Assembly (NCBI GenBank): GCA_000697355.1
Contig: JNEN01001212.1
Coordinates: 248,001 to 312,000 of the forward strand
Direction: 5' to 3'
Origin: Syncephalastrum monosporum B8922
Lineage: Eukaryota; Mucoromycota; Mucoromycetes; Mucorales; Syncephalastraceae
Length of the DNA stretch: 64,000 nt
Made by a program: the position numbers and the translations under genes
Shown: piece by piece, positions 4,712-64,000 of the stretch
Layout: each line of letters opens with the position of its first letter
Numbering within the stretch: the first letter of the stretch is position 1
Notes under the pieces: model-generated
What the model saw: only the letters and a program-made list of their open reading frames with translations
What the model was told of the DNA's origin: nothing
Databases searched by the model: none

Positions 4712-5457
4712 TCAAACCGGGCGTGCGGCTATCGGGACGTGTATCACGTGAGTCAGGTACAGAGTCTGACATGGGCAATCCTTGCTCGAGAGATCTTTCA
4801 TGAGTAAGTTTGTTGGGGTGAACACTCGTATAGTTCGCTTTCTTGTGCCTTTCTTATTTGCAGCAGTTGCAGTGCAGGGGAAAAGTGGTTCATACAAGGC
4901 GGTCACATGCTTGTATCTCATGGGTAAGAGGCAGATAATCGGTCTGGTCTTTGTATAGGGAGTATTGATGCAGGGCCAAGAAAGAGTCCGTTTATCCTCA
5001 GCAAACGCTGTCGTTCGCATCTTCGTCATACTGAGCAGCATCAGTACGGAACATGCTGGCCAAAAGATCAGGCCCGCATAATTTCAGGCCAGAAGAATTC
5101 ACTCGAACCACACGACTCGCCTTGGATAGACGACCGCGTTCATTATAGCGCAATTTCTCACTCACACACCTTCCATACAGGCGTGAGTCATAGCTTCTTT
5201 GGCATCAAAAGTGAAAATAACAACAGTGTCAGAGCCAATAGTTGTAAGTCTGTATCGAATATAAATTGGTAGGTCTTTTTTAGACAGGAAATCAGCTCGC
5301 TCGTCCAATCATGAGCTCCCCCTTTGCTTTCATTGTCCATAGTCGATGAACGCAGGAGCCGAAATATAAGGATGAATTTGCAACTCACTTTCACCACTGC
5401 TACTTTCCTCTCTTTTACAAACCTCAATCTTCCCAAGGATAACGACAATTTCTCCAA
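4712..5457 (-). pseudogene. Decayed ORF of unknown function in repeat copy A
   Basis: Reading leftwards from the F-box gene, the minus strand holds conserved peptide stretches shared with copy B: one frame reads SDTVVIFTFDAKEAMTHACM, the next reads NSSGLKLCGPDLLASMFRTD. The copies conserve residues across several frames, and the frames are broken by stops or frameshifts in both. The first stretch vaguely resembles the strand-helix part of an RNA-recognition fold or a retroelement gag/ORF1 protein, but that is a guess. It lies divergently from the F-box pseudogene with about 50 bp between. Confidence 0.35.
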
Positions 5458-6633
5458 TCTTCTTGGACGCCTTCCGGAGGAGCTTTTGGTACGCTTGTTG
5501 AGCTGTGTGTGAAAAGCGGTGATCCAGGTTGTTAACGGTTATGATAGTATACAATCCTGACAATGCTCACATCAGTTGACCTGTGGGAGCTTGAACGTGT
5601 GTGTCGCGGGTTTCGAGATCTCCTGAACTGGAGAAATCCGATGACAGGCGCTTGCGGATGCTTATGACAATACAGTTGCGCTGCAGAACGTACCTCTCTA
5701 CTGCGTTGAAAACACGAAGATAAGGCCTAACGAGTCAAGGATGATGACTCTCCAACTGTACCTGTGGTGGCCGACCGCTGCGGTATACCCTTGCCGCGTC
5801 CATTTACGTATCGTCCCGTATTTCGTCTGTTGGCCGGTCTGCATTGCGAGTTTTGCGGCCGGTCGTCCAACAACGTCCAACAAAAGGGATATCCTGATTT
5901 ATTGGATGTTCGGCATCCTTTGCAGCCGCTCGTGCTTTGGCCAACGCACCACCCACACGAACAATCTAACTGAAGAACAGATCACCCAGCTTATACCAGC
6001 GCAAACACTGTACCCCTCACATCGAAGACGGCGGCTTCCCTCTCGAGTCAGGACCACCTCCACCAGGCTCAACACCATCTGACTTACTCTCCAAATGCAT
6101 CCATAATGGTTGCAACGCGTTCATCTATGTTGTCCGCATCCGCCCTGCTCATACATTGATTCTGTTGCTCTTTCAGATCATAATTATCCTCCCTCTTATC
6201 GCGACATCACAGCATACAACGAGTTGTCAGACATTCGCCCTTTCCTCTGTGATACTTTTAAGGCCCTAATGATGGTTTCTGTGGGTTCACAGCCCTTTCT
6301 TACGCTGCCACCGGTAACGATAACCCTGCAGGCGGTATCCCGTCCGACCAGTGACTAGCCGCTTCGTTTGGAATCGGCATGTAGAGGGGCACTTGGCAGC
6401 TAGTACCCTGCAGGAAAAAAAAATAAGTTACCCGAAAAACCTCAACCAACAAAAAAATATTGCCCCTCCAACATCCATTGGCCTAACAATTCAACGAGAA
6501 GAGCGTTTAGTACAGCTGCGAAACCTCCAGACCACGATGGAGTACCGTATACAAAATGATCCCTGTTCTGAGGTCTTTCGACAAAGACAAACCCTGCAGC
6601 GCCACCCGCCTCGTCTGTCCTACCGCCTACTGA
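5446..6633 (+). pseudogene. F-box-like gene, copy A (frameshifted)
   Basis: The 5' part encodes LLGRLPEELLVRLLS and, after a likely intron, VDLWELERVCRGFRDLL, together an F-box. Downstream is the cysteine cluster seen in many fungal F-box proteins: CEFCGRSS followed, one frame over, by IYWMFGILCSRSCFGQRTT and LTEEQITQLI. The shift comes from a 10-bp tandem duplication near 5866-5885 (GTCCAACAACGTCCAAC), which copy B lacks. About 300 bp (6030-6330) absent from copy B still reads as protein here (SDLLSKCIHNGCNAFIYV, then DHNYPPSYRDITAYNELSD after a possible intron). The matching end of copy B is a TGA, here at 6631-6633. Probably non-functional. Confidence 0.6.
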
Positions 6634-6784
6634 CAGTAAAGGCGGTATATTTTCTATTTTCTTTTTCTTATTTCTTTGCCCACAATAAAGGACCCGTATG
6701 TGTATAGCCAAGTTGCTTAATACAAAAATAATTTACATTACGCGTCTTGTGTGTATAAAGGAGAATTCTACCTGTTGCTATTGC

Positions 6785-7174
6785 CAAACCTGAGCATGCA
6801 GGAAGGATGAATACCGAAAGCGAGTCAGAGACTCTCGAGGTGATGTCAGCAACTCTTGGAGGACACTCTGATGATCAGTATCCAAGCGGTAAAACAGATA
6901 GTTCTACGCAAGGCCTCTATTTAATGTGCGGAGTCGAGCACGTTCAACTTCCCACAACTCTGGATGCTATCGTGCCTTACTTATTACCATTGGACAAAAT
7001 CTTGGCTATTATGTCAAACTTCACGCAAGTTGTCCGTCGTCAAACTCATGATTATGACCACCACCCGCATACGCTTTCCAACGGACAGCTACGCAGTATC
7101 ATTGATCCCAGGACATGCCACAAACGAAGATCAACTATGAGTCATGGTGGAGTGTGTTTACCTTTCGATGAATA
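6785..7174 (+). pseudogene. Fragment of the C2H2-finger gene family (copy A)
   Basis: An open frame from ATG 6807 gives 122 residues. Its second half (LYLMCGVEHVQLPTTLDAIV ... LDKILAIMSNFTQVVR ... YDHHPHTLSNGQLRSIIDP) aligns with the C-terminus of the intact relative at 31825-33515 (LYLMCEVAQLRFPSVLEEIV ... LDTVMAIMTSFEQAAR). The first half corresponds to an internal exon of that gene read in another frame, and the zinc fingers are missing. The junction near 6900 looks like an internal deletion. It directly follows the F-box pseudogene, as in copy B. Confidence 0.6.
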
Positions 7175-23633: not shown

Positions 23634-25829
23634 CTAGTGCTCAATATCTTCCCACGCGTTCAAGTCCCAATTCCGGCCCTTGACATCGGCCAGCTCCTTC
23701 TCGGTCATCACAGACCCAGTCGTGAAGTAGCCAGATGCGACCTTGGCGTCGATTTCGACTCTACATGGGGAATATTTAGCATGGACACGCCAGGCTGGGA
23801 TACAAATGCCAAACGTACCGAGAGTCCTCAGGGATCATTTCTTCCGGAATAGGCACGCGCTCCAGAATAGGAATACCTGCACCCACGATAGCGTCATGTT
23901 TCTACATAGGATCAATTCCAGCGTGTGAGCCATGGCATCATCATGGATTAGATAAGCGAGGTCAGAGATAGACTTACCATATTGGACATGGACTAGAGTC
24001 GCGTAAGGAAAGAAGTGGAAGTTAGAAGCTGCATTGCGGCCGGACATGGGTGGATAGAGCTGAGCTTACCATCATACGATCAATCTTTTGGATACCGAGC
24101 CAGTGCAAGACATCAGGCATCAAGGCTTGGAAGCGCATGTCCTTGACACCAGCAATGCATTCGGTGCGCAGGAAGTAATGGGCAGCCGTGTCACCGCCCG
24201 CCTGTCGTTTCCCTGGCAAAACGCGTTAAACCCGTCTCGTTGCATTCTAAACAGACACACTTACGAGCGTTGTAGACGAGGTACTTTGTCACCTCACCCA
24301 GCGCACGACCTTCTTTGCGGACTACAAATCATTCTCGAGACATCAGTCCATTCATCCTTATAATGTTTCTTTGCGATGGAACTCACAGTAAACGATAACG
24401 CCAACGCCGCCCTGCTGGGCTTGCTTGACGCATTCCTCGATACCATAAATGAGGTAGGGGCGGCAGGTACAGATATCACTGCCAAACACGTCCGAGCCGT
24501 TGCACTCGTCGTGGACACGCAAGGTGAGTTTCTTGGAGGGATCTAAAAATGGATCGTCAGAGACATGATATTACTCGGGCTGGCTTTCATTACCTGAAAT
24601 GTAGGCAGGATTGCCAAAGACATACACGCTGATACCACCAATGGGCGGCAGATAGACTTTCAGATCGGGCCGAGTGATAAGCTCGGGATACATTCCTCCG
24701 GTGTCCTCGAAAAGAGCGCGGCGCAAGAGACCTTCATCGATGCCGAAGCGCTCAGCGACGCCGGGCAGATACCACACCGGCTCGACGGCTGCCTTGCTCA
24801 CCGACAGATCGCCTCGATCATTGACGACAATCTTGCCATCCACTTGGAGTGTGCCCTTCTTGACCGACATTTCCATCTCGGCCATGGTCATGTGGGCCTT
24901 GGTCACAGCAATGGTGGGTCTGATCAAATGTATCATCATATCTGTGTAAGCCTCGGCAGCACGATACTCCCTAGCTCTTGCTCTTGCTCTTCCTCTTATT
25001 TTGTAAATTACCTGACATCCAGGCCTCGATCGAATTCTTCCTTGTACAGCTGAGGAGCCATGTGACCAAACGGGTCGAGCGAGACAATCTTGGCCGGGTC
25101 AAACCAGGACGGGTGAGGACCGATTTTAAAGGCGGGCTCGGTCATATCAAAGTTGGGCCGGTGGTTGCTGGGCAGGTCGCCAATCGCGGTTGCCAACGCA
25201 CGGTACACGCAGTACGAACCACCATAGGCGCCAATCGCGTTCCTGGCATAGACGCGATCGGCATGAGTATTTTGCATTTCACATTCGAGTCACACAGCAG
25301 CTGCCACCCGCCTTACCTCTTTTTGATGCTATCCGGGTGACGCGAGGCCACGACAGGGCCGCGTGTTTTATGGTCGCTCGCGCCCCATTGGAGGTCCACA
25401 GGCTGGATACCGTGCTGCCCAGGGTAGGCTAGTCATGCGAAAAAAGAAAAAAAAATAATCAGGCACGAACCGTACGCTTAGGATGCATCCGCACTTACTA
25501 GTAAGGATAACACGGTGAGGGTATACGGCGCCATTGGCCATGGCGCTGGCCGGCGTCGCCATGGGTGAGATCTTGGGTGGGGACTCAGAGGGGGTCTGGG
25601 CAACCGCAGGTGGCAGAGCGGTGAGAGCGCTCTTGGGAGAAATAGGCTTTTGGGCTTGTGTAAGCTGCTCGACCTGTTGAAACAAACAAACAGAAGAGGG
25701 TTCAGCTCTCTTAGAAATGGAAAAAGGGCACAGAAGACGTACCTGAGCACTCAGACGCTGCTGGTCATGGTGCATGGCTTCCACCGTCTCTAGAAGCTGC
25801 TTGAGGATAGGCTCGTCCGCGAATGTCAT
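23634..25829 (-). CDS. URC1: GTP cyclohydrolase II-like uracil catabolism protein Urc1
   Basis: In the fungal URC route (defined in Lachancea kluyveri) Urc1 is a GTP cyclohydrolase II relative needed to use uracil as nitrogen source, distinct from riboflavin synthesis. The protein begins MTFADEPILKQLLETVEAMH (short coiled coil) and a Pro/Ser linker, then RGPVVASRHPDSIKKR, NAIGAYGGSYCVYRALATAI, KIGPHPSWFDPAKIVSLDPF, and the cyclohydrolase core RVHDECNGSDVFGSDICTCR with the three cysteines that bind zinc in this family, followed by QQGGVGVIVY, RKEGRALGEVTKYLVYN, RQAGGDTAAHYF and MPDVLHWLGIQKIDR. The long N-terminal domain and the C-terminal TGSVMTEKELADVKGRNWDL fit Urc1 rather than Rib1. About nine short exons. 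Divergent from the UPRT gene. Confidence 0.85.
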
Positions 25830-26215: not shown

Positions 26216-27225
26216 ATGACAGCGACACTCCACCCAAGCACTCATCCCTTGGTCGCAATCAAGCTTTCGCAATTACGCGATGCCGCGAATGGACCCAAGG
26301 TGGTACGCGAGCTGGTGCGCGACTTGGCTGGCATGCTTGCCTATGAAGCCTCGGCGGACATGACCGTCGTGAATGATAAGATAGTGCGTGACATTTGATG
26401 AGAATGCGGGAACTCCACGTGCCGGATAGTCATTGACCTTCTTCACTCTTCTTAGGCAAAGACGCAGTACGAAGAGTACACCACGACAGAGCTCAAGGAT
26501 CGTGTTGCGCTCGTGCCTGTCTTGCGATCGGGTTTGGGCCTCGTGGATGGTAAGAATGAAACGGAGGGAATATACCTTGTATTTTATCCTTCGTGGGTAG
26601 CGTGATGGCTCACCTGCATGCATATGCCTCTGATTTCCATTCCAATTCCATAGGGTTCTTGAACTTGTTCCCTGACGCGCATGTCCACCACCTCGGCATT
26701 TACCGTGAGAAGGTATGTCTGCATAATGCATGAGGCCTGTCCTCGCCTCTTCATTGGTGGATATAAACCCTTCATATTTGCATTAGTCCACATACATGCC
26801 TGTCGAGTATTACAACAAGCTGCCCGCCCGCCCCAATGTTGATACCTGCTTTGTACTGGATCCCATGGTCGCTACAGGTAAAAGAGAAAATATACCGGGG
26901 CCATTTGTTATTTACTGACAATCATGCATGCGCTATTTAAGGCAACACGGCAGTCGCCGCCATCAGCATGGTCAAAGACTGGGGTATGCCAGGCGATCAA
27001 ATCAAATTTATTGCTGTGCTTGGCGTAAGTAGTAGACACGTACCATTCTGGCTCTCTTACTGACTGTTGACAAACTCCTAGTCTGAACAAGGCCTCCGGC
27101 ATGTGGCAGAAGAGCACCCGGATGTCCATATTTACGTAGCCGGTGTCGATAAGGAGCTGGATGACAATGGTTATATTCGACCGGGTCTTGGCGACTCGGG
27201 CGACAGACTTTTCAACACTTTCTGA
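26216..27225 (+). CDS. FUR1: Uracil phosphoribosyltransferase
   Basis: Converts uracil plus PRPP to UMP; UPRT is also a component of the URC uracil pathway in yeasts. The protein starts [20 protein letters not shown] and shows [39 protein letters not shown], the PRPP-binding loop [60 protein letters not shown] and the terminal [11 protein letters not shown], the classic UPRT end. Five exons with short introns (about 26382-26456, 26549-26653, 26714-26786, 26877-26939 and 27027-27080). Length near 210 aa is normal. The head-to-head neighbour is URC1 and the STRA6-like gene follows on the same strand. Confidence 0.92.
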
Positions 27226-27519
27226 AAAGAGGGCCATCGTCTGGTTTGGGGTTCAGGGAATGAGAATTCCTTTTGATCATGATGATTTTCTGGGTGCTCC
27301 TTATTTTACATCTTCAATTTCCCTTTGCGATACACCTTTAGCGTTCATATATACACACACAACATACTTGTTCCTTTTCTTACTCTCTTTTCTTTTTGCG
27401 TACATAAAGACCTATGCTTGACATACCAATTTTTTTATTGCTTGTGCTGAAAGTATACAGTGTCACTGCGGGTAAAACACAAATAAAGATAAAAGAGGAA
27501 GGTTGCCTGATATGCTGAT

Positions 27520-30500
27520 GTGAACGTTACACAACCGTTATCATTATCATTATCAGACGCGTTCGCGACACAGTGTTGGGAAACGCTCAATGGGTATTGC
27601 CATGCCTGTTTTCGCTATCCAGTCACTCACAATTCACATATACATGTGCACAGGAAGCAAAATCTTCTGACCGACGGTCTCTGCCAACAGATAAACCAAG
27701 TGTCGGGCGGGTGGCAAACGTATCAGACTGATGACTGGGTCTACTACGAACAGCAATATGGTATAATGAGCTATAATAATCCAAACTCGTGAAACCTTAA
27801 TTCTCTCTTCTGCCCAGTGAACGTATCTATGACCGAGCACGTATTTTCGTTTGCCACAGGTAAGGGTTTCGAGTAGCCCTTACATTACATACTCTTATCT
27901 AATCCTAGCTCCTGTTTTTTCTTGCCCTGCTTTTCGCATCATATCATGTATCTTCGCACAGTCGGCGGTTGCTGTGCTCCGAACCGGTGGAAGCCGACCA
28001 CGAGCGTGTATCAGGATGATGGCCGGACTTTTGCTGATACGGGCAACAAGGTCGTGGGTATCGCCGATGCACCACTCCTCCAAACTATATCCATTGAAAC
28101 ACGATATATGCGCTACTTTGTGGATGACCACGCCATGGTAACCTATCAAAAAATATAACGGAATTGGGTCTCGGCACTTGTCACAGAAAATTCACACGGT
28201 ACTGTACGATAGAACCTGACCCTGATTCCATCGGTACAGTTTGCCGACAAACAAGCCCTCCTATACAGTTTGGGCTATGATCGTGCTGCCATCATCAATT
28301 ATGTCTTTTACGACGAATTTCATCGAATTCTCGCGAACCAATCCACGGGTGTGACCCGACACGCCCCTGGCATTGCCGACACCACTCTACCACCCAAAAC
28401 GCGTTTTATTGTAAGCTCTTAAAAAGTATTCACCCACCGCCACTGAGGAGTTGTATTCACCAATTTTCCAAAAGCGGCTTTCATTCTACGGGTCGCGCGC
28501 CAACCCGATATGCTTCACATACATCTATGCAGGCATCTACGTGGACCGTGATGCGGCCACAGTGACCAAGGTGTGCTCGACGCGTAAGTGAATGGCAGAC
28601 GGCTTTCCAGGACAGCACACGCTTATTCCTTTTGTATGCCAGTGGCAAGCATCTTTCAGTATCTTGCCCTTTTCAATTTCATTCTTGTGCCTGTTATTTT
28701 TGGCGCCATGACTCTGCTCTTTAAATCATTTCACTTCCCTCCGCAAGTGTCAAAAGTCATATCTGTGTTCTATTCAAAACACTAACCTGCTTCTATGCCA
28801 TGTAGACCTCTCCGCTTTTTATGCAGACAGCCATCGCACCCGATGCTGCTGTGTATTTTTGTCATGATGGGGTCCTTTATCTTCAGCCAGGCTTGGAATT
28901 TGATAAATTCCCAAGAAAGCATTTTTGATGAGTGGCTGCCACGGGCTGTCAAAATCATTGGTTAGTGAAATCCACGCGCACATGTACCTTTATGCTCATG
29001 CATATTTCGTTATTTGAAGAGCTTTTCGTGTCCTTCTTCTTATATGCGGTCTATTTTTATCCTGTAAGCATAAACTTACCGACTTGGACGATATCCTGAC
29101 GCATTATTATGGAATTAGGTCTTTCTCTGTTTTCAGGCAAGCTACCGATCGCGGCTCGCCAATATCCTCGGTAAGCAGTCGATACTTTTCTACCGCATGA
29201 TAAGACGAAGATAGCTCATGTGTCTCCTTATAGGTTGCTACTCCACGGCCGTTCTCTTTGGTCTTCGCGTTGTCGTTGACCTTCCCGCATTTGTCATCAC
29301 CTATGCGCGCGACGTGCCCTTTTTGGTGCTCTCTGTCGCCGCATCTGTGCCCGCCATCCTCGCCTACTTTGCTGTGCTCTTGTTCTTTTTGATCCGTGTC
29401 TTCACCTATCAGAACTGCGACCTATGTCATATGGAGAACCAGGAGGTACGCGACATTGAAGAACAATATGTTCGGCATCTCTTCTCCATCCGCGAATCCA
29501 ATTACAAGGTCAGCCAAAAAAAAATCTTGTGGTCTCCGTTCGAGTAGCTCATATCATGATGTTCCTTATCGTGCAGCGTAAGCTCTGGCAATCATGGACA
29601 CGGCGCATTTGGGCCTGGGTGACAAAAGACATTTGGCGCTTCTCCTTCAAGCAGGCCTTCACGAAAGCGTCTCTCAAAACAGGTGTCTATCGTATCTTCG
29701 GTACCCATCCTCTTGTGCGGTAGGTGGATGATCGTAGCTTGTATTATTCCCCCCCCCCAATGCCTACGTGCACACTGACGTGTCTGGTTTACCTGCAGAA
29801 TTCCTTTTATCGTTAAGGCCGCCCTGACGCTTTTGATTTACTGCTTGATCCAGCTTGCAAGTATATGGCTTTTTCCTCGATGTAGCCCTGTCCTTAATAA
29901 TGACTTTTATTTTGATATGTAGATTCCAGTTCTGCTTGTGGAGTTCATTGGCGTCGGTGGCATTGTGCCGACACATATCTGTGCTTGGTCTCCATACTTG
30001 TCACTGCTTCAGTATACACCCAACCCTATGGCCTTTGCGAAGAAATCCATGATACTCATGCAGATAGCCACGTGCTTTGCTACTGTTGGCGGTGGTGTAT
30101 GTGAGTACATATCAGTGGCTGAGAAGGCGAGAGGCTTTCATGCATTAAATATACTTTAGTCTGCCTGATCTACTCCTTGGGTATTTTGCGGCGCGTTACA
30201 AAGGATATCCGGCGTCTGCGTCGAGGCGACTATGTGCTTTTCAAAGGAAAGAAGGAGAACAGGTGTGTACGCTTATGAAGGAGGTCGATCGGCTCACTTC
30301 GCATTATGATAGCATTGATTTAGACGACGCAATCCGGTTTCTCGGTGTCTGTGTTGGCTTTGGTAAGATCAATACGTGTTGTAGATGATATAAAAGCGCT
30401 AAAACGAATACTATAGGTTTTACAGGCACTCTGTATTCGATGGTGGAAATCAGTCTAATTGGGACGGCCATTGCCATGCTGATTCAGCTCGATTTGCTTC

Positions 30501-31353
30501 GTGAGGCTCTTATTCAACATGTGGGATATGGTAAATAGGTCAGAAAGCACGACAGAATACACTAAATAATCTGGCTTCATAGGTATCTTTTTCATGAGTT
30601 TCTTCATTGCTTTACTGGTTCAACTGGTTCAAAAGCGTATCACGGGCCTTATTTTCATCAAATCCAACTCGCGCCTCAGCATTCAGAACCGTGCACCGCT
30701 CTTGCATTACTGGTTCTTTATGATGTTCACGTCCATGACGCGTGCCTTGACGTCCTATATTATCCGTACCCTAAAGCTTCTGCTGCGATACCCATTCTTC
30801 AGCTTGCGCGTGGATCGGAATGCCGAGACGTGGTCTGTCCGGCGCGGTGATGGCGGTAAGCTCTCGTTCAGTGCATCGCACCCTTTTGTATGCCATATGC
30901 TGACAAGGACCTCTTTCTTTCAGGCTTTGTTGGTTACTGTGGCATGGTGGGTCTCGAATCGGTATCCCACTATCATAAACTCACTTTTGGAAGTCAGCTT
31001 CTCGCAGAGCATGAGTACAACAATCCCGTCATGCTAGTCTTCCTAGAATGTATCCTCCACTGTTGGAAGAAACGCCCACCTACGGGCGTCGTCCGTTCCT
31101 CCTCAAATCGGCTCTGCCGTCACCATTCGGAAAAGGACGACACCGAAAGTCACTGGGGTTTTACGCAGGTTTTTCCACGCGATGTGTCATCTCAGCGAGC
31201 AAGAACGCGATGGTTTTTGGCATACACGCTCATACAAAATCCGATGGTAACTACGCCTGCCCATCGAAATAGTAGTTTCTCATTGAAATTTCATAGCTGC
31301 GTAAGTGGCGGAAACATGCCATCGAAGCTAGAAAGGAAAGAAATAAGAAATGA
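27520..31353 (+). CDS. STRA6-like multi-pass membrane protein
   Basis: STRA6 is the vertebrate cell-surface receptor that moves retinol across membranes. The C-terminal part matches it: NRAPLLHYWFFMMFTSMTRA, GYCGMVGLESVSHYHKL and the terminal TRWFLAYTLIQNPM then LRKWRKHAI, parallel to the RWGLAYTLLHNP type end of STRA6. About 15 short exons restore one frame (e.g. ENS|IDLDDAIRFLGVCVGFGFTG across the intron at about 30262-30310). The protein has a Cys-containing N-terminal extracellular-like region of about 200 residues (GGCCAPNRW, ICFTYIYAGIYVD), then about nine membrane segments (SIFQYLALFNFILVPVIFG, LLCIFVMMGSFIFSQAWNL, ILAYFAVLLFFLIRVF and others). The exact start is uncertain; 27520 is the first in-frame ATG. 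Function in a fungus is inferred, perhaps apocarotenoid uptake. Confidence 0.72.
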
Positions 31354-31824: not shown

Positions 31825-33515
31825 TCATTGTCTTCTCCATGCATCAGGATCAATCATCCTGCGTAGCTGTCGGTCGGTGAGCGTTTGAGAGTGGCGGTCA
31901 TAACCGTGATCCTCTTGGCGGGCAGCTTGCTCGAAACTTGTCATAATGGCCATCACCGTGTCCAATTCTCCCAAAAATGGCACGATTTCCTCTAGGACTG
32001 AGGGGAAGCGGAGTTGCGCGACCTCGCACATTAGGTACAGGTCTGGTTGGGCGCGAACGAGAATGTAAAAGGTCCCGGTGGTTCCTATATCAGAAAGTAA
32101 ATTGTTGGGATACTGCCATTGCTCTTGACCATCAAACGCACGAACTACTAACCTACTACAGTAAACCCTATTGCTAATCTGGCTCTGTTGCGGTCCGAGG
32201 CATCTTTTGCCGTAAGTCCGACCTGGATGAGGTCCCTGGCAATCAATGCATGGTTCGGCGCCAGGTGGTGTGCTTTGACGGCTCCACATCCAATACATGC
32301 GCCAAGTGCTGCTCCATGAACAATGTCCAGAGATGCAAGATGCCTTGCGGTGTCATCATCGCCGGCATTAGTCCTATGGAAGCCATATCATATTGGATCG
32401 TAAATACTAAAGTCAACTCGAATTTGGCGGGTTTGATTCACGTTACCACCGCAAAAGGAAGCCGGCGTCCAAATCCTCAAACAGAGGCTGAAAGATTGAC
32501 TGCACAATTCTTGTGATCAACTCCACCTTTAAGAGCTCATCCCAGATGGCATATCGAGGTAAATGCTCTAGTCTATTGATTTCAATAATGAATTAGTAAC
32601 ACTGTATGACTCTCACTATCTTCCCCAGTCACCCTCCCCCCAGGGGAAATTCAGTTATCCGAAACTCACATATTCCTGATGACGAACAGCACTCTGTTGG
32701 TTGGTGTCCAAGTGGAGCCTTCCATCAATGCCGTGATCTCCCTGGAGGCATACACACGCGTGTACGGTCCTTCGTAGTTGGGTGTATCCTAGTACAACAG
32801 AACGAGTTCGTTCGTCAGTTGATTTCTTTGAATCAAGGGCGGCATGTATCTCACCAAAGGCTCTAAGCGGATAAAACGCTCTAGAATTTGTCTCACTGAA
32901 TCAAGGATATTATTCGGGAATTGATGGCGACGCGGAACGATATTGGCTGTCAGAGTAGCATCCAAGAGCTGCTCACATATCTCAAGGTCAATGTATTCAT
33001 GGAGATCTGCATGAGTGCGGCCGCGTTGCAGAAGCAGGACACCCGATAGCGCCAAGATATGCTGAACGTGCCCCTCCAATGTCAACACCTTTGGAACTTG
33101 CTCGGCTCTTGCTTTGGCCGCAAGCTGGAAGCGGTAAAACGGCTCAGAAACGTCCACACCTCGGAATATGAGTCGATCATTAGCGGCTGGCGGTGGAGGA
33201 AAATCAGTGGGAAAAATATTGATTGGATCACGAATAGGTTCGCAGACAAGGCCATGCTCGCCCTTGACGTGTCTGGTAAAGTCCCAGGCGTTCTCAAGCG
33301 TCGAAATGCATATAAAACAAAGAAAGCCTGCTTCTGTTTGCTCGGTTAGAACATTGCCTATGTTATCAATTCGACGTTAGAAGTGTAAAAAAAGCTATGC
33401 TGATATGAGACTCACCGACAGCGACAACAGACACATGTTCTTCCACTGTGTGCTTGTTGTCTTGATATCTGGTCCGGAAATATCTACCGCAATATCTGCA
33501 ACCAGTGTACTCCAT
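31825..33515 (-). CDS. Two-C2H2-finger protein of an expanded local family
   Basis: An apparently intact gene; function unknown. It begins MEYTGCRYCGRYFRTRYQDN with a first C-X2-C-X12-H-X4-H finger, and after a 58-bp intron a second finger CFICISTLENAWDFTRHVKG (C-X2-C-X12-H). It continues with LTLEGHVQHILALSGVLLLQ, IVPRRHQFPNNILDSVRQIL, RNILEHLPRYAIWDELLKVE, LLRWTNAGDDDTARHLASLD, ARDLIQVGLTAKDASDRNRA and ends DRQLRRMIDPDAWRRQ. Five exons; every GT-AG junction keeps the frame, a sign of selection. ATG 33617 is an in-frame alternative start. Broken relatives occur at 6785-7174 and 42160-42922. Tandem, unusually spaced fingers suggest nucleic-acid binding, but a TE-derived or immunity-like role cannot be excluded. 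Confidence 0.65.
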
Positions 33516-42159: not shown

Positions 42160-42639
42160 CGTAAATACTAAACTTATCTCAAATGTTGGCGGTTTCGATT
42201 CACGCTACCAGTGGAAAAAGATGCCCTGAATGTCCATACTGTGCAAACGAGCTTACTGAGAAAAAGGGTCACGTCATTTCAGATGCCAGCGTTCAAATCC
42301 TGGAAAAGAGGTGCAAGGACTGATTGCAACTGCCTTGATATTAATTTCACATCTTGGGACCCATCCCCGATGGCATATCGAGGTAAATGCTCTAGTCTAT
42401 TGATTTCAATAAGGAATCAATAACACTGTATGAGTCTTTATCTCCCCCATTATTCCCCCCCCCCCCCGGGGGGAAATACAGTTATCCGAGACTTAACATA
42501 TTCCTGATGGTGAGCAGCACTCTGTTGGTTGGGGTTAAGATGGGGCCTTCTATCAACCCCCTAAATTCCTTTAGATACATACAGATGTGTGTAAGGTTCC
42601 CGGTAGTAGGGTAAATCCTAATGCAGCAGAACGAGTTCG

Positions 42640-42922
42640 CTGGTCATTCTCGGTTTTTATATTGCTTTAAGGGTGACATGCATCTGACCAAGGGATCTGA
42701 GTGGATCAGACGTAGAACTATCTGTTTTACCGCTTGGAAGACATCATTTGAAAATTGCTCGTGACGCGGAAAGATACTGGTCCTCAGAATGTCCTCTAAG
42801 AGTTGCTGACATCGCCTCGAGAGTCTCTGACTCGCTTTCGGCATACCTCCTTCCTGCATGCTCAGGTTTAGCAATAGCAACAGGTCGAATTCTGGTGCAT
42901 ACACACAAGACGCGTAATGCAA
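42640..42922 (-). pseudogene. Fragment of the C2H2-finger gene family (copy B)
   Basis: The frame contains RLSRRCQQLLEDILRTSIFP and RHEQFSNDVFQAVKQIVLRL, IHSDPLVRCMSPLKQ, matching the intact gene's LEICEQLLDATLTANIVPRR, HQFPNNILDSVRQILERFIR, LEPLVRYMPPLIQR. The zinc-finger exons are missing upstream and the downstream exons are degenerate at 42160-42440. Confidence 0.6.
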
Positions 42923-43021
42923 ATTATTTTTGTATTAAGCAACTTGGCTATACACATACGGGTCCTTTATTGTGGACAAAGAAATAAGAAAAAGAAAATA
43001 GAAAATTTACCGCCTTTACTG

Positions 43022-43640
43022 TCAGTAGGCGGTAGGACCGAGGAGGCTGGTGGCGCTGAAGATTTTGTCTTTGTCGAAAGACCTCAGAACGGGGATCATT
43101 TTTATACGGTACTCCATCGTGGTCTGGAGGTTTCGCAGCTGCACTAAACGCTTTTCTCGTTGCGGCAGGGTAGCAGCTGCCAAGTACCCCTCTAGATGCC
43201 GATTCCAAACGAAGCGGCCAGTCATTGGTCGGACGGGATACCGCCGTTTTCGATGTGAGCAGTACAGTGTTTGTACTGGTATAAGCTGGTTGATCTGTTC
43301 TTCAGTTAGATTGCCCGTGTGGGTGGTGCGTTGGCCAAAGCACGAGCGGCTGCAAAGGATGCCGAACATCCAATAAATCAGGATAGCCCTTTTGTTGGAC
43401 GACCGGCTGCAAAACTCCCAATGCAGACCGGCCAACAGACGAAATACGGGGCGATACGTAAATGGACGCGGCAAGGGTATACCGCATCGATCGGCCACCA
43501 CACGGTACACTTGCGGGGTCATCGGATTCCTCCAGTTCAGGAGATATCAAAACCCGCGCCACACGCGTTCAAGCTCCCACAGGTCAATCGGTGTGAGCAT
43601 TATCAAGTTTGTATACTATCATAACTGTTAATAACTTGGA
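43022..43640 (-). pseudogene. F-box-like gene, copy B (truncated)
   Basis: The longest frame (43022-43522, 166 aa) starts MTPQVYRVVADRCGIPLPRP and includes CSRSSNKRAILIYWMFGILC, SRSCFGQRTTHTGNLTEEQI and ends LLGPTAY. The F-box upstream (DLWELERVWRGF) is broken by TGA codons, the first cysteine of CEFCG is replaced (WEFCS), and about 300 bp of coding-like sequence present in copy A is deleted between two GGCGG motifs. Its lesions differ from those of copy A, so each decayed separately or by partial exchange. Confidence 0.55.
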
Positions 43641-43761
43641 TCATGCTGTCCACACACGACTCAACAAGCGTACCAAATGCTCCTACAGAGGCATCCAAAA
43701 AGATTGGAGAAGTTGTTGTTATCCTTGGGAAGATTGAGGTTTGTAAAAGAGAGAAAAAGTA

Positions 43762-44400
43762 ATGGTGGTTAAAGTGAGTCGCAAATTCATTCTTATATTT
43801 CGGCTCCTGCGTTCATCCACTATGGACAATGAAAGCAAAGGGAGAGCTCATGATTGGATGAGCGAGCTGATTTCCTGTCTTAAAAAGACCTACCAATTTA
43901 TATTCGATACAGACTTACAACTATTGGCTCTGACACTGTTGTTATTTTCACTTTTGATGCCAAAGAAGCTATGACTCACGCTTGTATGGAAGGTGTGCGA
44001 GTGAGAAATTGCGTTATGATGAACACGGCTGTCTCTCCAATGGGAGTCCTGCGGTTCGAGTGAATTCTTCTTGCCTGAAGTTATGCGGGCCGGATCTTTT
44101 GGCCAGCATTTTCCGTACTGATGCTGTTAAATATGGCGAAGATGCGAACGACAGCATTTGTTGAGAATGAAACGGACTCTTTTTTGGTCGTGCATCAATA
44201 CTCCCTATGATCGCACGGTGGAGAAAGGCCACATCGATTATCCGCCTCTTACCCATGAGATACAAGCACCTGGTGGCCGCCCCTCGCAACAACACGACGG
44301 TCCTGATTCTCAACAAACTTACCCAGTAAGAATCTCTCGAGCAAGGATTGCCCATGTCAATCACTGCAGACTCTGTACATGGCTCACGTGATACACGTCC
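43762..44400 (+). pseudogene. Decayed ORF of unknown function in repeat copy B
   Basis: Counterpart of the minus-strand ORF of copy A: MDNESKGRAHDWMSELISCL then, in another frame, SDTVVIFTFDAKEAMTHACM and EGVRVRNCVMMN, then NSSCLKLCGPDLLASIFRTD. The frame from SDTVV onward is longer than in copy A, where a TGA stops it. No family assigned. Confidence 0.35.
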
Positions 44401-59848: not shown

Positions 59849-62800
59849 ATGGATACTGCCAACCCCATAGGTAAATCGAAGCATGCCGCTCACAGTGCAC
59901 CCACCACTCATGCCGTGCCGTACTAGATATCTTTGCGTATCTCGAAAAGACGCTCTCGGAGCGCATTATGGCCATTGACGGTGCGATGGGTACCATGGTC
60001 CAGCGTCTCAAGCTTGAAGAGAAGGACTTTCGCGGTAAGCTTTGGTGCACACCTTGTGAAGGCGGTGGCTCACGGCGTGAATAGGCGAGGAGTTCAAGAA
60101 CCACAGCAAGGACTTGCGCGGCAACAACGACTTGCTCACCTTGACCCTACCCGACGCCATTTACGACATTCACCGCATGTACCTCGAAGCCGGCTCGGAC
60201 ATGGTCGAGACCAATACCTTTAGTTCGACGACGATTGCCCAAGCGGATTATGCGCTTGAAGAGTATGCGTATCGCCTCAACAAGGAGGGCGCTGCTCTGG
60301 CCAAGCGCGCCTGCAACGATGTAAGCCGAACTTATCTCCGCGCATTTGCCAAACACGATGGATTGACCCCCCGATGAACATGCCATATTCTGCAGGTTTA
60401 CAAAGCAACGGGCATCCCGCGATTCGTCTGCGGTGCGATTGGCCCCACCAACCGCACGGCTTCCATCTCGCCCTCCGTCGAAAACCCGGCCTTCCGTAAC
60501 GTCACCTTTGACGAGCTCGTCACCGCTTATGCCGAGCAGATCCGCGGTCTCCTGGACGGCGGCGCCGACATCCTGCTTGTCGAGACCATTTTCGATACCC
60601 TGAACGCCAAGGCCGCCGTCTATGCGATCGATCTCGTCATGGACGAGGACAAGTAAGTGTCACTCGACCGTGTTCTGCGTCAACATCAGGCTCACCACGG
60701 TGCGACCAGGCGCCCGCGTGTGCCCGTGTTTATCTCGGGCACCATTGTCGATCAGAGTGGCCGTACCCTTTCCGGCCAGACCGGTGAGGCCTTTGTCACC
60801 TCGCTCAACCACGCCAAGCCGCTCGCCTTTGGTCTCAACTGTGCGCTCGGCGCCCCTCAGATGAAGCCTTTCATCCAAAACATCAGCCGTTTCACGGACG
60901 CCCACATCATCTGTTATCCCAACGCCGTACGTTTTCTTCTGCACGCCACACAACAAGTATAAAGTGCTTCATATCTCATTATGTGTCGATCTTAGGGTTT
61001 GCCCAATGCAATGGGTGAGTATGATGAGAGCCCGGAACAGATGGCGAAGAACGTCGAGCCCTTTGCCCAGGAAGGTCTCGTCACCATCGTCGGTGGCTGC
61101 TGTGGTACTACGCCCGAGCATATCAAGGTAATAACGCAGAGACCGAGAAAGAGCACCCAACTGACCGCGTTCTATCCTTTAGGCCGTCATGGATGTGTGC
61201 AAAAAATACAAGCCGCGCCCCAAGCCTGCGTACAACCAAGACGTCATGACCCTGTCCGGTCTCGAAGTCCTGCGCGTCGACGAAACCACCGGTTTTGTCA
61301 ACGTCGGTGAGCGCTGCAACGTGGCCGGCTCGCGCAAGTTCTGCCGCCACATTCTGAAGGGCGAGTTCGAAGAAGCGCTCGCCATTGCGCGTGCCCAGGT
61401 CGAGAACGGCGCCCAGGTCGTCGACTGCAATTTCGATGAGGGTCTCCTGGACGGTCACGCCGCGATGCACAAGTTTTTGAACCTGGTCGCTTCCGATCCG
61501 GACTGTGCGCGCGTGCCGCTCATGGTGGACTCGTCCAAGTTTTCCGTCATCGAGGCCGGTCTCAAGTGCGCTCAGGGCAAGTGCATTGTGAACTCGATCT
61601 CGCTCAAGGAGGGCGAGGAAGAGTTCATCAAGAAGGCCAAGATCATCAAACGCTTTGGTGCGGCCGTCGTCGTCATGGCTTTTGATGAAACCGGCCAGGC
61701 AGCTGAGAAGGACCGCAAGGTCGAGATCTGTACGCGTTCGTACCGCATCCTGGTCGACAAAGTCGGGTAAGTTTTACATGCTTCCAACGCAAAACGTCGT
61801 GCGCTGTTGCCAACACTTTTTTTTTCTTAGCTTCAACCCGTATGATATTATCTTTGATCCCAATATTTTGACCATCGCAACCGGCATGGGTACGTCCTTT
61901 TGTTGCGTGCGTTGACGCATATCTTACCGTTTCATAGAGGAGCACAACAACTATGGTGTCGAGTTCATTGAAGCCTGCCGCGAGATCAAGCGTACACTGC
62001 CGGGTGCCAAGATCAGCGGTGGTGTGTCTAACCTGTCGTTCGCTTTCCGTGGTATGGACAAGGTGCGTGAGGCGATGCACTCTGTCTTCCTCTTCCACGC
62101 CGTCAAGGCGGGTATGGACATGGGTATTGTCAACGCCGGTTTCTTGACCGTCTACGACGACATTCCCAAGGATCTCTTGGAACTCTGTGAGAACGCGGTT
62201 TGGAACAAGGATCCTGAAGTCACGGAGAAGCTTCTGGATTACGCCAAATCCCACTCCAAGGACGCCAAAAAGGACGAAGATCTCGAAGAATGGCGCACAT
62301 GGCCGGTGACGCAGCGTATCTCGCACTCGCTTGTGAAGGGTATCATGAAGCACATCATTGAGGATACCGAGGAGGCCCGTCAGGACAAGGAAAAGTACCC
62401 GCGTGCGCTGAACGTCATTGAAGGACCTCTTATGGATGGCATGAACGTCGTGGGTGATCTATTTGGTAAAGGCAAGATGTTCTTGCCCCAGGTCATTCGC
62501 TCGGCTCGGTAAGTTCCTCTCTTTGAAAACGAGAAACATGGACATGCATTCTGATTTTTGTTCTTTTCAGTGTCATGAAAAAGGCCGTTGCACATCTGGT
62601 GGAATTTATCAAGGTGGAGAAAGAAGAAGAGATGGCACGTACGGGCGAGACCGAGATGAAGGGCAACGGCACGATCATCATGGCCACCGTCAAGGGCGAC
62701 GTCCACGACATTGGCAAGAACATTTGCGGTGTTGTGCTTGGCTGCAACAACTACCGCGTCATTGATATGGGTGTCATGGTACCTGTCGATAAAATCATCG

Positions 62801-64000
62801 CCAAGGCGATCGAGGAGAAGGCCGACATCATTGGTCTGTCGGGCCTGATCACGCCCTCGCTTGAAGAGATGGTGATCGTCGCCAAGGAGTGCAAGAAGGC
62901 CGGTCTCAAGCTGCCCATCCTGATCGGTGGTGCCACGACGAGCAAGATGCACACCGCGGTCAAGATTGCACCCCAGTACGATGCGCCCGTCGTGTATGTC
63001 CTTGACGCGTCGCGCAGTGTGCCTGTGGCGGCGTCGCTCCTTGACGAAAATCTGCGAGAGGACTTTAGCGAGGACATTCGGGAAGAGTACGAAGAGCTCC
63101 GCGAAGAGTACTATGATGGTCTGGAGGAAAAGCATCTGCTCACGATTGGTGCCGCGCGCGAAAAGAAACTCAAGATCGACTGGTCGCTCAATCCGCCAGT
63201 GAACAAGCCTGCGTACCTCGGCACCAAGGTGTACGATAATTACCCGCTCGAGCAGCTGCTCGCCCACATTGACTGGAACCCCTTCTTCCAAGTCTTCCAG
63301 CTCCGCGGCCGGTACCCCAACCGTGGCTACCCCAAGATCTTTGACGATGAGCACGTCGGTGCGGAGGCCAAGCGTGTGTTTGAGGACGCACAGGTGATGC
63401 TCAAGGACATTGTGTCCAAGAAACAGCTCCGCGCGACCGGCATTGTCGGCTTCTATCCTGCGAACGCGGTTGGCGATGATATTCACGTTTACGAAGACGA
63501 GTCCCGCGACACTCCCAAGGCTGTCTTCTATGGTCTGCGCCAGCAGTCCGAGAAAGAAACGGATGAGCCATACTACTGTCTGTCCGACTTTGTCGCACCC
63601 AAGGAGACGGGCATGCAAGACTACATAGGTATGTTTGCGGTGAGCACCGGCTTTGGCTGCGATGAGCTCGTGGCGCAGTATGAGCAAGACCAGGACGACT
63701 ACTCGAGTATCATGGCCAAGGCGCTCGCGGATCGTTTGGCCGAAGCGTTTGCCGAGGTGCTTCACGAGGAGGTGCGCAAGACCGAGTGGGGCTACGTCCA
63801 GGACGAGACCCTGTCCGCGGCCGATATGTTCGCGGTGCGCTACCAGGGTATCCGTCCCGCGCCCGGCTATCCGTCCCAGCCGGACCATACCGAGAAGCTG
63901 ACGATGTGGGAGCTCGGCGATATCGAGGCCAAGACGGGCATGAAGCTGACCGACTCGCTCGCGATGGAGCCGGCTGCCAGTGTCAGTGGTTTGTACTTTG
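59849..64000 (+). CDS. metH: Cobalamin-dependent methionine synthase (3' end outside window)
   Basis: Transfers the methyl group of 5-methyltetrahydrofolate to homocysteine through bound methylcobalamin (EC 2.1.1.13). Starts [21 protein letters not shown]; homocysteine-binding domain with [18 protein letters not shown] and [11 protein letters not shown] carrying the zinc cysteines; pterin domain with [32 protein letters not shown] and [12 protein letters not shown]; cobalamin domain with [20 protein letters not shown] and the DxHxxG cobalt-ligand site [20 protein letters not shown]; activation domain with [20 protein letters not shown] near the right edge. Short N-terminal exon, then about ten exons with GT-AG junctions. 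The AdoMet domain is nearly complete when the window stops. Codon use is C/G-rich, suggesting good expression. Confidence 0.96.

Follow-up and report, generated by a model that had tools for sequence, protein, structure and literature searches.

STRA6 is the membrane protein that brings vitamin A into animal cells. In vertebrates it binds retinol-binding protein (RBP) at the loop between its transmembrane (TM) helices 6 and 7 (PMC4584289), and Y336, G340 and G342 have been reported as RBP-contact residues of the mammalian protein (PMC9992173). In zebrafish STRA6, the CaMBP2 peptide binds Ca2+-calmodulin, and the complex has been solved (PDB 5K8Q; PMC7154012). One review states that STRA6 seemingly evolved "from scratch" together with the RBP system of vertebrates (PMC3546623), and another paper describes STRA6 as animal-specific (PMC5977736). 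Here we describe a STRA6-like gene of the fungus Syncephalastrum monosporum B8922, found in a window of 64,000 nucleotides, by which we mean the whole stretch of DNA analysed (positions 248001-312000 of its contig; the assembly holds 27.5 Mb in 198 contigs). A literature search for STRA6 and fungi gave no fungal STRA6 by title among the matches listed; the sole match for STRA6 and mucor was, by title and abstract, a review on plant terpenoid purification. Orthologues from Mucorales already stand in NCBI and UniRef as "retinol binding protein receptor-domain-containing protein" or "Receptor for retinol uptake STRA6" (the latter type of name is on P0003, P0010 and P0041), names that look automatic. 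Databases, it appears, already contain the fungal STRA6 family, whereas no description of it turned up in the searchable literature.

Homology to vertebrate STRA6

The gene occupies 27414..31353 on the plus strand and has 22 exons encoding 866 amino acids. Its TGA stop codon has its last base at 31353, exactly where the original prediction had ended the gene. That prediction had counted 15 exons and started the gene at 27520, missing a first exon that resembles a signal peptide; both motifs it had quoted, NRAPLLHYWFFMMFTSMTRA and RTRWFLAYTLIQNPM followed by LRKWRKHAI, are encoded by the spliced gene. Exon borders were set by reading frame, splice consensus (GT/GC-AG) and homologous proteins. 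The exons lie at 27414-27471, 27557-27593, 27654-27760, 27818-27859, 27962-28137, 28213-28410, 28475-28583, 28643-28742, 28806-28960, 29020-29063, 29119-29170, 29234-29508, 29577-29719, 29799-29856, 29923-30100, 30160-30262, 30313-30362, 30417-30530, 30583-30855, 30924-30946, 30998-31246 and 31297-31353. The 21 introns are 50-102 nt long; 19 are GT-AG and two are GC-AG, both of the latter beginning with GCAAGT (28743-28748, after 28742, and 29857-29862, after 29856). A first splice model with 20 exons and 899 amino acids was abandoned when homologues revealed two more introns, and two other borders changed; the score against the Pfam family PF14752 (RBP_receptor) was 57.4 bits with that model and 93.9 bits with the final one. 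PF14752 matches this locus alone in the genome and a search with the protein returns its own exons only, giving one copy.

The original prediction had proposed a STRA6-like protein and named a profile search and a comparison with the STRA6 structure as checks. Both bore it out. The 93.9 bits stand against a curated cut-off of 25 (E=1.4e-26), with residues 277-855 matching profile positions 50-605 of 605. All of the 30 fungal homologues in our alignment matched PF14752 at E <= 0.1 (best 8.5e-29). When a profile of these homologues was compared with the PDB, it matched zebrafish STRA6 (5sy1_A) with E=1.1e-7 and, with E=0.022, the STRA6 peptide solved in complex with calmodulin (5k8q_B). Comparison by hhalign with a profile of 15 fish STRA6 proteins scored 102.5 (E=5.2e-12), while reversed profiles reached 17.9 and 27.7 and all 40 block-shuffled profiles scored at most 28.2. 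A structure model built from fungal sequences only agreed in fold with the solved receptor 5SY1, which was its first match both in Foldseek and in structural alignment. Since the Pfam, PDB, profile-profile and fold comparisons all support it, we regard homology to STRA6 as close to certain.

The likeness extends to the order of parts and to single residues. The fungal protein has the nine-helix core of STRA6 (5SY1, PF14752) in identical order, and shares with it P278/F281/L282, D376-P378, R508-P510, R737, R751-D753 and D765 (numbering of homologue P0006). We counted columns in which one residue reached at least 80% in both groups of an alignment of 50 fungal and 50 fish rows. There were 51 such columns, six of them in the ectodomain and distrusted, as the aligner had stretched the short fish N-terminus there; the other 45 lie elsewhere.

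Predicted architecture

The first exon (27414..27471, plus strand) encodes a hydrophobic N-terminus, MLDIPIFLLLVLKVYSVTA, which by hydropathy is a putative signal peptide; homologues P0001, P0006 and P0021 start similarly. It is followed by a predicted ectodomain of approximately residues 20-232 (27471..28552, plus strand), modelled as a jelly-roll beta-sandwich, and by the STRA6-like membrane core (28553..30629, plus strand), for which Pfam, hydropathy and structure models predict nine TM helices. The nine or so membrane helices expected by the original prediction were recovered: downstream of the signal peptide, hydropathy showed nine strong hydrophobic segments and a tenth, weak one, and a second model, made of a homologue, has nine long helices in its membrane region (237-270, 289-312, 321-349, 355-386, 388-418, 511-536, 562-607, 625-661 and 675-699) and a further helix at 716-755. 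The lysines and arginines in the 15 residues after each TM helix sum to 17 for TM1/3/5/7/9 and to 3 for TM2/4/6/8, a bias that fits a topology with the N-terminus outside and the C-terminus inside. Hydropathy, sequons and the model helices are likewise consistent with this topology of the predicted core. After the core, 76% of the columns of a hydrophobic helix, PLLHYWFFMMFTSMTRALTSYIIRTLKLLLRYP (30696..30794, plus strand), are at least 90% conserved. From order alone, in a region where model confidence is low, we infer that its place is that of the horizontal intramembrane helix of STRA6 or close to it.

Near the C-terminus, a CaMBP2-like segment, SQRARTRWFLAYTLIQNPM/LRKWRK (31190..31314, plus strand), is putatively calmodulin-binding and is recognised at the sequence level by its profile match to 5k8q_B and by its conservation. 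The last intron (31247-31296) interrupts this motif. The fungal stretch SQRARTRWFLAYTLIQNPMLRKW aligns with zebrafish CaMBP2; in the comparison with 5K8Q itself, the zebrafish stretch aligned with fungal QRARTRWFLAYTLIQNP, a weak match for the single sequence (E=0.64). Residues 831-850 have a mean identity of 74% to ten orthologues (picked from 52), compared with 23% in the linker just upstream, and the segment holds 8 of the 45 trusted columns shared by fungi and fish. The peptide SQRARTRWFLAYTLIQNPMLRKWRK is a candidate calmodulin-binding peptide. The genome has 42 EF-hand matches, counted as a class. As read from the sequence, the tail segment is the strongest hint to mechanism, and calmodulin coupling may be as old as the common ancestor of the fungal and fish groups.

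The fungal protein carries an extra ectodomain of about 210 residues; in carp STRA6 the first helix is preceded by about 43 residues (counted by eye). By itself the ectodomain matched no Pfam family. The structural matches shown for it, from whole-protein models, were mostly jelly-roll or similar beta-sandwiches, among them the sugar-recognising F-box domain of Fbs1/Fbs2 and carbohydrate-binding modules. This is a likeness of fold only: the Fbs rows are 8-10% identical to the fungal ectodomain, and the Fbs domain is cytosolic whereas the fungal ectodomain is expected outside the cell. We set aside a lipocalin-like ectodomain serving as a built-in RBP; no lipocalin was among the structural matches shown, a tentative negative, as it comes from lists of whole-protein matches.

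The TM6-TM7 loop, GVGGIVPTHICAWSPYLSLLQYTPNP (29950..30027, plus strand), matches in position the RBP-binding site of vertebrate STRA6. Its mean column conservation among fungi is 0.78, compared with a family mean of 0.67. Only three of its residues (P0006 537, 538 and 553) are common with fish at 80% or more, but the loop as a whole is unlike that of fish. Whereas the vertebrate system uses RBP, a lipocalin carrier (PF00061/PF08212) was not found in the fungal genome by an unspliced six-frame search, which could miss an intron-rich gene; 2 and 4 of 14 control genomes matched. Because the loop is conserved in fungi but unlike that of fish, and no lipocalin matched, an outside partner other than RBP is the simplest reading. 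We see the protein as a genuine but variant member of the STRA6 family, with an extra ectodomain and, it seems, no RBP to go with it.

Ligand, mechanism and the mating-signal question

Computation gives a core of the STRA6 type, for which nine helices are predicted, together with a CaMBP2-like segment and a separate N-terminal jelly-roll. The best overall explanation, to which we give about an even chance, is a homologue of vertebrate STRA6 that sits in membranes of the cell surface or of the secretory pathway. The core would form a hydrophobic path linking the outside to the inner membrane or cytosol, along which an isoprenoid lipid, carotene-derived or of a similar kind, would cross passively, and cytosolic Ca2+/calmodulin would regulate or sense its passage. 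The ectodomain, with a fold common to sugar-binding modules, and the conserved TM6-TM7 loop might dock to a glycan of the cell wall or to a carrier of the ligand, standing in for animal RBP. By homology, a lipid conduit with calmodulin coupling is the best-supported mechanism, which we hold with middling confidence. The most likely class of ligand is a fungal apocarotenoid (trisporoids, cyclofarnesoids or their precursors), a tentative assignment. Since this Mucorales family has a calmodulin-type segment and no RBP was found, the core and calmodulin link would either predate the RBP partnership or have moved between kingdoms.

Among the alternatives, the protein could have no apocarotenoid link and instead move some other hydrophobic molecule, for example ergosterol, a sterol ester or a different lipid of membranes, either at the plasma membrane or within the secretory pathway. 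This we also consider possible though short of probable; against it, retinol is the cargo of STRA6 and RBPR2, the family members whose transport activity is known (PMC4584289, PMC9992173). It is rather unlikely that the protein is mainly a sensor, whose ectodomain would bind a wall or partner glycan and whose core and calmodulin would produce a Ca2+ signal with no transport.

A more specific proposal is that the protein receives or imports trisporoids as mating signals, taking up the partner's C18 precursors for trisporic acid and being required for mating. Trisporoids derive from beta-carotene, as retinoids do (PMC5133782), and trisporic acids are described as made cooperatively from the mating partner's intermediates (PMC5705715), which must therefore enter cells somehow. 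The homologues found occur in lineages that use trisporoid signals, and the genome has four loci for carotenoid-cleavage enzymes (CCDs), as expected for apocarotenoid makers (PMC5133782). The only receptors for carotene-derived mating signals that we found in print are unproven candidates (PMC5705715), namely class C G-protein-coupled receptors (GPCRs) called TAR, upregulated in mating. In these fungi they are proposed to perceive the apocarotenoid signals of mating, but they are seven-helix receptors of another family. They speak against the proposal: class C GPCR-like loci were found on three other contigs of this genome, two of the three above the cut-off. Furthermore, PMC9233402 cites work that, by its title, concerns trisporic-acid-mediated sex in Mortierellales; our searches, of limited sensitivity, nonetheless listed no homologue from Mortierella. 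The weak acids may also cross membranes unaided. Altogether we find the trisporoid role doubtful, if well worth testing. No LRAT match was found in the genome; rhodopsin matched neither this genome nor any control genome and was thus uninformative.

The full reading, that Mucorales take up apocarotenoid mating signals through a STRA6-type, calmodulin-gated conduit with its own lectin-like ectodomain, is rather unlikely. If it held, STRA6 would have carried apocarotenoids at a time when there was no RBP carrier, and a route that moves carotene-derived hormones into cells would be common to animals and moulds. The single-copy gene offers a concrete test case for the uptake or sensing of carotene-derived mating signals. 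The neighbouring genes suggest no special tie to mating. Against the claim of homology, the tail has a large share in the profile-profile comparison: split profiles gave weak hhalign matches before the tail (501-845, E=0.06; 640-830, E=0.031) but E=5.3e-10 for 501-878 with the tail included, with E=0.0032 for 236-500 and no match for the ectodomain. The better evidence for homology of the core is the Pfam match without the tail, which still reached 50 bits (E=2.6e-13) after the last 71 residues were cut. The resemblance to STRA6 might have arisen by chance from hydrophobic helices and a single short basic motif, as an overall identity of only about 20% to the fish rows and the share of the tail in the score might suggest. 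This is very unlikely given this Pfam match, the match to the PDB, the low hhalign controls and 5SY1 as first structural match.

Orthologues and genomic neighbourhood

The homologue search listed 52 proteins spread over 32 genera, each of which we take to belong to Mucorales or Umbelopsidales. A search with the fungal alignment, which scored only the 7997 candidates with most shared words, gave only fungi and one protein without a name, adding one Umbelopsis protein. No homologues in other fungi or protists were listed, a weak negative as the same searches failed to reach fish STRA6; remote homologues in other fungi are possible for this reason. In the search from fish STRA6, the best 120 of 604 matches were all fish where named. 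The closest named protein is P0001 of Syncephalastrum racemosum, with 83% identity to our first gene model (BLASTP) and 90% across 838 columns to the corrected one, and with the same ectodomain and tail; this agrees with the placing in Mucoromycota by the original prediction. P0001 is modelled without parts of two helices, and many of P0029-P0050 are without helices or the N-terminus; the gene studied here offers a fuller exon plan than several public models of the family.

A tree of 30 fungal and three fish rows, chosen from the search matches, joined the gene to that of S. racemosum (100/100) within a group of Lichtheimia, Circinella, Zychaea and Fennellomyces (97/94). Absidia, Halteromyces, Cunninghamella and Hesseltinella formed one group, and Mucor and its kin another. 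Its weak points are that good support is not found at every fork (17 of 30 starred), that Umbelopsis falls inside the Mucorales rows and not beside them, and that Phycomyces is a long row. The tree fits inheritance by descent within Mucorales. A split into two fungal paralogues, raised by matches of about 41-47% and about 650-720 amino acids, was dropped for now because most such rows are, residue by residue, about 50-58% identical to the protein studied here but are without segments. Apparently incomplete gene models explain these shorter matches, and the genome itself has one copy.

Upstream of the gene lies a uracil phosphoribosyltransferase gene (about 26300-27225, plus strand), its last exon (27082..27222) identified by Pfam (PF14681, E=1.8e-17) and the remainder by eye. 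Upstream of that is an open reading frame (ORF) with a GTP cyclohydrolase N-terminal domain (24571-25098, minus strand). We presume that these two may form a uracil-catabolism pair (URC pathway). In Apophysomyces, a single gene model, P0052, seems to join the uracil phosphoribosyltransferase and the STRA6-like gene, which points to shared adjacency. At the end of the window (61183-64000), a pterin-binding domain is followed by an ORF that by eye resembles cobalamin-dependent methionine synthase, an unusual enzyme in fungi. The window also holds a direct repeat of 189 nt with 74% identity (32458-32646 and 42282-42470, 9.8 kb apart) and inverted repeat pieces of about 1.9 and 1.4 kb (4991-6882 and 42773-44171), 88-95% similar and 36-38 kb apart, which are probably a repeat element.
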